Assembly: GCF_946902045.1 (NCBI RefSeq)
Contig: NZ_OX336253.1
Coordinates: 1,798,001-1,862,000 of the forward strand
Reading direction: 5' to 3'
Source: Neisseria sp. Marseille-Q5346
Lineage (GTDB): Bacteria; Pseudomonadota; Gammaproteobacteria; Burkholderiales; Neisseriaceae
Length of the DNA stretch: 64,000 nucleotides
The notes beneath the pieces were generated by a model, which saw only the letters and a list, made by a program, of their open reading frames with translations, was not told the origin of the DNA and searched no databases. A program made the position numbers and the translations under genes. Of the stretch, positions 56,887 through 59,384 are shown piece after piece; positions within the stretch are counted from its first letter, which is position 1, and each line of letters opens with the position of its first letter.

Positions 56887-56927
56887 GAGGCCGTCTGAAA
56901 AGCGGATAATTCTTTTCAGACGGCCTT
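56887..56927. terminator. Inverted DUS upstream of dnaX
   Basis: GAGGCCGTCTGAAAAG and CTTTTCAGACGGCCTTC around a 9-base loop. It lies in a divergent region, so it is more likely an uptake site than a needed terminator. Confidence 0.5.
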
Positions 56928-56954: not shown

Positions 56955-58958
56955 ATGGCTTATCAAGTTCTTGCACGAAAATGGCGCCCGAAAACCTTTG
57001 CCGATTTGGTCGGTCAGGAACACGTCGTCAAAGCCCTGCGCAACGCGCTGGACGAAGGCCGTCTGCACCATGCCTATCTGCTGACAGGGACGCGCGGTGT
57101 GGGTAAAACCACGATTGCCAGGATTTTGGCCAAGAGTTTGAACTGCGAAAATGCCGTGCATGGCGAACCATGCGGTCAGTGTGAAAGCTGTACGCAAATC
57201 GACAGCGGCCGTTATGTGGATTTATTGGAAATCGACGCGGCATCGAATACCGGTATCGATAATATCCGCGAAGTGTTGGAAAACGCCCAATACGCGCCGA
57301 CAGCGGGTAAATACAAAGTCTATATCATCGACGAAGTGCATATGCTTTCCAAAAGCGCGTTCAATGCCATGCTGAAGACTTTGGAAGAACCGCCTGAACA
57401 CGTTAAATTTATTTTGGCGACCACCGATCCGCATAAAGTCCCCATTACCGTATTGAGCCGCTGTTTGCAGTTTGTTTTGCGCAACATGACAACCCAGCAG
57501 GTTGCCGAGCATTTGGCACATGTCTTGGATCGTGAAAACGTTCCTTATCAGCCACAGGCTTTGCAACTTTTAGGCCGTGCCGCCGCCGGCTCGATGCGCG
57601 ATGCGTTGAGCCTTTTGGATCAGGCGATTGCCATGGGGTCGGGTAAAGTGGCCGAACAAGATGTCCGCCAAATGATCGGAGCAGTCGATAAACAATACTT
57701 GTTTGAATTGCTTGAAGGAATCATCAATCAAAACGGTGAGGCCTTGCTGGAAAAAGCTCAGGAAATGTCCGCCAGAGCGATTGGTTTTGACAGCGCATTG
57801 GCAGAATTGGCCATGTTGTTGCAACGTTTGGCTTTAATTCAAACCATTCCTTCCGCCTTGGCAAATGATGACCCTGAACGTGAAACTTTGCTGCGATTAA
57901 GTCAGGCTTTGAGTGGAGAGCAGATTCAGCTTTATTATCAATGTGCTATTCATGGCAAACAGGATTTGCCGCTGGCTCCGGACGAGTATGCCGGTTTTGT
58001 CATGACGCTTTTGCGCATGCTTGCATTTGCGCCGTTGGCCGCTTCGGGTTGTGATACGCAAAGTCAGATTGAACACACGGATTTGCATTCCGATCATCAG
58101 AAAGCTGAGGCCGAAAAAAAGCCTTTTCAGCTGCCGAAATCTGAGCCGATAGCAGCACCGGCGGTTGAGAAAGAGGCTGTTCCGACTAAACGGGATATCG
58201 TTGAAAGGCCGTCTGAAGAAACCGTTCAGCCTGTTCAGCAACAACAGGCGGATGTACCGCCTTGGGAAGACATGCTGAGCCAAGTATCGGCTGAGCCGCC
58301 TCAAACTCAAGCGGTGCAGATGCAAGAAACTGCGGAGTCATTGCCTGTTGCAAAAGTTCAGATGGCCTCTGAGCCGGAAGAATATCCGCACATGGATGAG
58401 GAAATTCCGCCTCCGTTTTTTGATGAAGCATATACATATGAAGATTCACATCATGCTAATGTGATGGAAGTACCACAGCCGGTTGCATCTGCTGAGTCTG
58501 AAGAAGAGGAGGGGGATGATGAAGAGCTTCAGTTCACTCCTTTGCCTGAGTTTAAAACAGAGAATTGGCACAGCATTATCGAACGCTTTGCCCGTAAATT
58601 AGGCGCAGCGCAGATGTTGGCGCAAAATGCGGCATGGACGAGTTATGATGCGGAAGCAGGTTTAATCATGCTGTCGTTGACGGATGAAGCCAAAGCCACT
58701 GCCAATAAAGAGCGCTTGGACAAAATCTGCCAGACGTTGAGCGAGGCATACCATCTTGGCAATTTAAGGCTGCAAACCGAGCCTTGGCAAGATGATAAAG
58801 GCTGGGAAACGCCGGTGATGCGCCGCAAACGTATTCAAGAAGAAGGGCGGCAGCAGGCGCAAGATTTTCTGGAAGCGGATACAACGGCGCAGAAAATCTT
58901 GCAAACCTTTGAAGCACAATGGCTGCCGGATTCTTTAGAGTTGGCAGGGCATTCTTAA
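56955..58958 (+). CDS. dnaX: DNA polymerase III subunit gamma/tau
   Basis: This 667-residue clamp-loader subunit loads the sliding clamp and, as tau, couples polymerases to DnaB. The Walker A GTRGVGKTTIAR, the zinc cysteines (NCENAVHGEPCGQCESC), the DEVHML box and the sensor region are in the first 370 residues. A Gln/Glu/Pro-rich linker follows, then a C-terminal polymerase-binding domain from about 530. Codons 387-389 are GAA AAA AAG, which contain an in-phase A AAA AAG slippery heptamer; a -1 shift would end after 7 more codons and give a 396-residue gamma-like form. ybaB follows. Confidence 0.97.
   Translation: MAYQVLARKWRPKTFADLVGQEHVVKALRNALDEGRLHHAYLLTGTRGVGKTTIARILAKSLNCENAVHGEPCGQCESCTQIDSGRYVDLLEIDAASNTGIDNIREVLENAQYAPTAGKYKVYIIDEVHMLSKSAFNAMLKTLEEPPEHVKFILATTDPHKVPITVLSRCLQFVLRNMTTQQVAEHLAHVLDRENVPYQPQALQLLGRAAAGSMRDALSLLDQAIAMGSGKVAEQDVRQMIGAVDKQYLFELLEGIINQNGEALLEKAQEMSARAIGFDSALAELAMLLQRLALIQTIPSALANDDPERETLLRLSQALSGEQIQLYYQCAIHGKQDLPLAPDEYAGFVMTLLRMLAFAPLAASGCDTQSQIEHTDLHSDHQKAEAEKKPFQLPKSEPIAAPAVEKEAVPTKRDIVERPSEETVQPVQQQQADVPPWEDMLSQVSAEPPQTQAVQMQETAESLPVAKVQMASEPEEYPHMDEEIPPPFFDEAYTYEDSHHANVMEVPQPVASAESEEEEGDDEELQFTPLPEFKTENWHSIIERFARKLGAAQMLAQNAAWTSYDAEAGLIMLSLTDEAKATANKERLDKICQTLSEAYHLGNLRLQTEPWQDDKGWETPVMRRKRIQEEGRQQAQDFLEADTTAQKILQTFEAQWLPDSLELAGHS
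58115..58121 (+). promoter_or_regulatory. Candidate programmed -1 frameshift site in dnaX
   Basis: The heptamer A AAA AAG is in the zero frame. GAGG at 58107-58110 lies just upstream. GCTGCCG (58130-58136) can pair with CGGCGGT (58159-58165) 8 bases downstream. The -1 frame stops at TGA 58142-58144. Confidence 0.55.
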
Positions 58959-58969
58959 AATACTGATAT

Positions 58970-59010
58970 ACAAGGCCGTCTGAAAGGCAATAGCGTTTTT
59001 CAGACGGCAT
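58970..59010 (+). repeat. Inverted DUS pair between dnaX and ybaB
   Basis: AAGGCCGTCTGAAA and TTTCAGACGGCAT, one half an AG-DUS and the other an AT-DUS. No T run follows, so dnaX and ybaB may still be co-transcribed. Confidence 0.55.
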
Positions 59011-59048: not shown

Positions 59049-59384
59049 ATGTTCGGAAAAGCCGGATTAGGCGGCCTGATGAAACAGGCTCAACAAATGC
59101 AGGAAAATATGAAAAAGGCACAAGCCAAGCTGGCTGAAACCGAAGTTGAAGGCGAAGCAGGCAATGGTTTGGTAAAAGTTGTGATGACGTGTTCGCACGT
59201 TGTCCGCAAACTTGAAATCAGCCCTGATTTGATTCAAGAAGCCGCTGACGACAAAGAAATGTTGGAAGATTTGGTATTGGCCGCTATCAATGCCGCTTCT
59301 GAAAAAGCCGAAGAAACCACCAACAAAACCATGGGTGCGTTTACCCAAGGCCTGCCTGCAGGCATGGGCGACTTCTTCCGCTAA
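59049..59384 (+). CDS. ybaB: YbaB/EbfC nucleoid-associated protein
   Basis: This 111-residue dimeric DNA-binding protein ([48 protein letters not shown]) has the helix-strand-helix YbaB fold. It usually follows dnaX, as here (90-base gap). Ribosome site AGGAGTAAAAT. Confidence 0.95.

Follow-up and report, generated by a model that had tools for sequence, protein, structure and literature searches.

The dnaX gene of the window, as we term the 64-kb stretch of DNA analysed in this study, very probably harbors a cassette for programmed −1 ribosomal frameshifting of the type found in Escherichia coli. This reading, which had been proposed in a first-pass annotation, is supported by the phase of its slippery heptamer, the conservation of the site, selection at the level of codons, the pairing of upstream regions with the ribosome in the genus and the proximity of stop codons in the −1 frame. 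The frameshift site is not new for Neisseria and already on record, as Recode-2 includes the dnaX of Neisseria and uses the genus in its dnaX logo (PMC3711429). According to this source, the earlier prediction by others concerns the same genus, gene and heptamer. No measured shift in a Neisseria dnaX was found in the literature searched.

Organization of dnaX and its probable slip site

On the forward strand, positions 56955–58958 encode in the zero frame the long product tau, a protein of 667 residues that is identified by NCBIfam DnaX models and Pfam. Its clamp-loader domains I–III (Pfam PF13177, PF22608 and PF12169; 56955–58037, forward strand), which extend to residue 361, are common to gamma and tau, and the tau domain V (PF12170; 58557–58922, forward strand), which spans residues 535–656, is missing from the predicted gamma, thus placing the slip site in the linker between both units. 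The first-pass annotation had predicted a short product of 396 residues that would keep the clamp-loader domains and lack those of tau; its length (with a computed mass of 43.6 kDa) and its domain content were borne out, the latter by Pfam domain borders that fit gamma, whereas the proposed mass of about 73 kDa for tau gave way to a computed value of 74.4 kDa. Tau is encoded in a single open frame, and the reversed layout, where tau would depend on a shift, is absent from the window. Downstream of dnaX follows a gene of the YbaB family (59049–59384), a gene order that is the same in E. coli.

Within the linker, codons 387–389 read GAA AAA AAG (58113–58121), which places the slippery heptamer A AAA AAG (58115–58121, forward strand) in the phase of a −1 shift. 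The position in the zero frame, which can be read directly from the sequence, is the one assigned initially, and the heptamer is also supported by its conservation and by codon statistics. Its slippery bases are part of a run of seven A (58114–58120), which is preceded by a Shine-Dalgarno (SD)-like GAGG (58107–58110) and followed by a predicted stem, whose 5′ arm comprises positions 58124–58136 (core 58128–58136) and its 3′ arm positions 58159–58171 (core 58159–58167), all on the forward strand. The −1 frame reads AAA AAA GCC TTT TCA GCT GCC GAA ATC TGA and would thus append the tail AFSAAEI (58121–58144 including the stop, forward strand) before terminating at TGA (58142–58144), in agreement with the annotated stop after seven codons when counted from behind the two lysines. 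If gamma is made, AFSAAEI would constitute a unique peptide that is searchable by mass spectrometry. The sequence AAAAAAG occurs 40 times on both strands of the window, and among its stop-to-stop frames longer than 238 residues it is found in shift phase in dnaX alone. Judging from these counts and from the conservation and codon choice described below, the heptamer is neither the result of chance nor of a mere requirement for two consecutive lysines in the protein.

The genome contains 59 tRNA genes identified with Rfam, among which ARAGORN assigns two to tRNA-Lys, both with the anticodon UUU and none with CUU. The shiftiness of A AAA AAG has been tied to a sole tRNA-Lys and its weak pairing with AAG (PMC5009743, excerpt), and in E. 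coli A_AA.A_AA.G ranks as one of the three heptamers of highest efficiency (PMC4066793, excerpt).

Conservation and codon choice in Neisseria

Our sample of the genus comprised 46 genomes, 45 of them with a match at the level of DnaX; the remaining genome (G019), although given as 100% complete, shows only a weak match (E = 6e-18) and perhaps misses a stretch. A AAA AAG is found in phase in 40 of the 45 genes at codons 381–395, in each case followed by a −1 stop within 1–13 codons. In these 40 genes, the second lysine is invariably encoded by AAG, compared to 5.5 cases expected for a codon that accounts for only 13.7% of lysines in these genes. The preceding codon encodes Ala (24), Glu (8), Pro (5), Val (2) or Leu (1), with at least 11 amino-acid changes on the tree, and nevertheless ends on A in 40/40 genes, where 11.6 would be expected from the codon usage of the same amino acids. 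Four codons upstream, a third-base G, which forms the GG of the SD-like site, is found in 30 of 40 genes across seven amino acids (7.6 expected). For further tests on SD pairing, folding and stops, 24 representatives were picked by hand from the 40 genes to thin out close kin. Within 12 codons on either side, full identity of the third base in this set is restricted to the three codons of the heptamer, and the early −1 stop, whose conservation had been put forward as a check, is located within nine codons in 23 of the 24 compared to 41.5% of control positions in the linker. The statistics on codons, SD pairing and stops ignore kinship, and only the count of changes allows for the tree. On this quick tree, in which 33 of 82 inner branches are weak and from which a gene cut by its contig (L147) was left out, the heptamer has changed at least six times over all rows and at least four times within Neisseria.

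The loss of the heptamer by synonymous changes in relatives, which had been named as an observation that would speak against frameshifting, was not encountered, as none of the 45 Neisseria genes retains both lysines at this place without the heptamer. Five of the 45 lack the site, which is thus dispensable in some Neisseria, and all five are devoid of Lys-Lys at the slip place. In four of them (L036, L040, L041 and L043), no in-frame heptamer of the form X XXY YYZ was found within codons 355–480, and these either make no gamma or reach it by another route. The fifth (L045) contains a run of ten A at codon 420, with Lys-Lys at 421 inside this run.

The A-rich character of the site brings to mind an alternative process, in which RNA polymerase would slip on the run of seven A and ordinary translation would end early on the altered transcripts. 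Such transcriptional slippage takes place in dnaX of Thermus thermophilus at a run of nine A (PMC5009743, excerpt), and runs of 9–11 A are present in several relatives (L141, L143, L045, L135 and L136). Like the Thermus gene, that of the window would provide gamma and tau at an A-run, but it differs by the shorter run, the fixed AAG and, in the genus, by the SD. The seven A in the window (58114–58120) fall short of the run of about nine in Thermus, slippage sites often being runs of eight or more (PMC3711429, excerpt), and in 32 of 40 Neisseria genes, where the preceding codon is not GAA, only six A remain. Since slippage of the polymerase would require neither an SD nor a fixed AAG, both of which are kept in Neisseria, we consider it very unlikely to account for the site. 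Even less can be said for the absence of any shift, where the linker would need Lys-Lys-Pro as part of the protein, for example for binding or for cleavage by a protease, and general codon use would account for the A-rich codons. A proline (CCN) after Lys-Lys in 38 of 40 genes does indicate some conservation at the level of the protein, but a need for this tripeptide explains neither the uniform choice of the rare AAG nor the third-base A that precedes it irrespective of the amino acid.

Sequences that may stimulate the shift

In the 24 representatives, the energy of pairing between the region upstream of the heptamer and the anti-SD sequence peaks at a gap of 8 nt with a mean of −4.6 kcal/mol. 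At this gap, 58% of the representatives reach values of −4.5 kcal/mol or lower compared to 3.6% of background octamers, and the best value at gaps of 4–14 averages −5.65 vs −1.85 in controls (p = 1.4e-11). In dnaX of E. coli K-12, which served as positive control, the peak is found at a gap of 9 (−6.9). The internal SD of the genus resides at a gap of 6–10, and its mode matches the spacing in E. coli. In contrast, the GAGG of the window, whose presence the first-pass annotation had correctly pointed out, is separated from the heptamer by only 4 nt instead of the 8–10 expected of such a cassette, below the mode of the genus and the value of E. coli, which makes its role doubtful. An alternative pairing of positions 58103–58108 with 58127–58132 could compete with both the SD and the stem. 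Together, the codon choice, the SD pairing in the genus and the proximity of the −1 stops suggest that a −1 shift has been selected for.

A stem downstream of the heptamer had also been anticipated. Its existence is retained in our prediction but not its length of 7 bp, as a fold of a 52-nt stretch pairs 13 bp (58124–58136 with 58159–58171), three of them G-U, at an energy of −19.9 kcal/mol (z −3.39). The z-value varies with the stretch chosen and amounts to only −1.47 for 61 nt. The core of the predicted stem starts 6 nt downstream of the heptamer, in line with the 5–6 nt of an E. coli-type cassette. Counted from the first base of the codon in the P site, the distance is 12 nt; the stem of E. 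coli dnaX is reported to pause the ribosome at 11–12 nt (PMC7282821, excerpt). Prediction also yields a similar stem for each of the five close genomes (L001–L005); in the sister gene L002, one pair of the core is interrupted (−13.6 kcal/mol). Across the genus, the downstream structure is uneven, with a mean z of −0.9 for 60 nt relative to windows of the same gene and 12 of 24 representatives below −1. A single hairpin conserved throughout the genus was considered and rejected, as the folds differ between genes. The verified stem of E. coli shows an energy of −19.4 kcal/mol and a z of +0.32, for a stretch that began 1 nt late, illustrating that z is no sharp test of a stem.

The neighborhood of dnaX also contains copies of GCCGTCTGAA, which we take to be the Neisseria DNA uptake sequence (DUS) and which occurs 76 times in the window compared to 0.17 expected copies. 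Inverted pairs of this sequence flank the gene on both sides (56890–56924 and 58975–59008), and a single copy is located in its linker (58208–58217). In two other Neisseria genes, the hairpin predicted beyond the slip site is built from such an inverted pair, which is perfect in L006 and carries a single mismatch in L008; the hairpin lies farther downstream than a classic stimulator. Uptake sequences may supply hairpins in the dnaX linker.

dnaX in other relatives

The family Neisseriaceae was represented by 83 genomes, 37 of them outside Neisseria, of which 34 contain a match at the level of DnaX; all of these were read, one being cut by its contig (L147). None of the 34 genes carries A AAA AAG at the slip site, and L157 contains it at codon 513 instead. 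Runs of nine A are found at codon 383 in L141 (genus g12) and L143 (g9) and runs of 11 A at codons 375–376 in both g6 genes (L135 and L136), where they constitute weak evidence due to the A-rich character of genes that hold several runs of eight. Runs of 8–9 A are located elsewhere in three g10 genes. The runs of 9–11 A in L141, L143, L135, L136 and the Neisseria gene L045 are positioned in or near the place of the linker that is occupied by the heptamer in Neisseria, and their length is of the kind at which RNA polymerase slips in dnaX of Thermus. C CCA AAG is found in phase in L140 (g11), with a −1 stop one codon on, and in L142 (g3), where this stop is farther away.

In other families of the order, 40 of 97 genomes were sampled by choice, 38 of them analysable. 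Runs of 8–10 A are present in 7/38 dnaX genes and A AAA AAG in two, both times inside such a run. In a broad named set of 79 loci (with L049 left aside), of which 59 were analysable by the ORF finder, A AAA AAG was detected in four. In two genomes of one genus from another family of the order (L222 and L223), dnaX encodes 441 and 459 residues in the zero frame and a tau-like end in the +1 frame, and both frames overlap over 81 and 136 codons, which could reflect +1 recoding or a restart. A split dnaX in one genome of the Neisseriaceae (L137, G076) was rejected as a programmed shift since its frame changes upstream of the linker; it looks like an indel or an assembly error.

A probable reversed layout in genus g8

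A distinct organization was found in the genus g8 (L129–L134), where in all six genes read the zero frame already ends at 377–381 residues. A seventh genome, which is 58% complete, contained no DnaX match. The zero frame closes with GAC CCA AAA followed by TAA, or by TCA TAA in L131, and the −1 frame is open for 214–383 codons from the heptamer C CCA AAA. In the three genes that were compared to tau domain V of the window, the end of the −1 frame matches this domain (L132, E = 2e-12; L129, 4e-11; L131, 2e-10; single comparisons). The Pfam model of tau domain V, applied to four g8 genes, gave three weak matches below the cut-off and none for L131. In L129, a −1 frame stop codon directly before CCC implies that the frame change must fall on the heptamer. 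The main stem-loop is predicted to start 4–6 nt after the heptamer in 6/6 genes, with z-values relative to shuffled sequences of −3.0 to −5.8 and with 0 to 12 of 287–333 windows of the same gene folding equally well, and four of the six show weak SD pairing upstream of the site. Among the database matches listed, at least nine proteins of 377–386 residues end at or within five residues after the corresponding Pro-Lys, one of them named MAG Neisseriaceae bacterium, and the short frame is thus not the error of one assembly. As judged from these features, it seems to be tau, rather than gamma, that needs a −1 shift in g8. The motif C_CC.A_AA.A belongs to 18 shift-prone, under-represented motifs that were followed up in a previous study (PMC4066793, excerpt).

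A reversed layout has been described for Chlorobium and others (PMC3711429 and PMC5009743, excerpts); it is shared by g8, whereas the window has the opposite organization. Poly-A stretches are present in 12 of the 17 genes of PMC3711429, compared to C CCA AAA and a stem-loop in g8. No mention of this layout in Neisseriaceae was found in the literature searched.

Discussion

The comparison with E. coli underlines the resemblance of both systems, which share the heptamer in phase, a slip between domain III and the tau domains, a stem of similar energy, an early −1 stop and tau encoded in the zero frame. Differences concern the position of the slip (codons 387–389 in the window vs 428–430 in E. 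coli), the stop after seven codons rather than one, and the sequence of the stem, which is unrelated. In the proposed mechanism, AAA (388) would occupy the P site and AAG (389) the A site at the moment of the slip, and two tRNA-Lys(UUU) would move back by one base and pair anew with AAA AAA. The downstream stem-loop would help this process and, in most of the genus, an upstream SD-like sequence would do so by pairing with the ribosome. Shifted ribosomes would add AFSAAEI and stop to release gamma, with its clamp-loader domains and without those of tau, and unshifted ribosomes would proceed to tau. The shifting of the ribosome, its frequency, the stimulation by the stem and the assembly of gamma into the clamp loader are in this scheme inferred from sequence. 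That the shift is real and its product waste, with the signal tuning the level of tau or the decay of mRNA and gamma being without a role, appears equally as improbable as a linker requirement for Lys-Lys-Pro: five of 45 Neisseria do without the site, which speaks for this reading, but the slip just after domain III leaves a complete clamp-loader module and a product of the length of gamma is what the zero frame encodes in g8.

The different lineages would thus arrive at both proteins by distinct routes. In Neisseria, tau would result from standard decoding and gamma from a −1 shift at A AAA AAG. In g8, gamma would result from standard decoding and tau only from a −1 shift at C CCA AAA, so that a gene that looks truncated would yet encode tau in its −1 frame. 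Other lineages hold either runs of 9–11 A that would be fit for slippage of RNA polymerase or no recognisable site. It is likely, if somewhat less assured than the assignment of the cassette in the window, that the Neisseriaceae have seen a reversal of what the dnaX shift yields together with a change of its site, with the pair of gamma and tau being kept while the decoding device turns over. The added interest lies in the combination, within one family, of genus-wide signs of selection at the level of bases with a turnover of the device up to its reversal. With the heptamer, its loss, A-runs and the reversed layout, the Neisseriaceae offer a natural series in which it can be asked whether selection maintains the gamma:tau pair.
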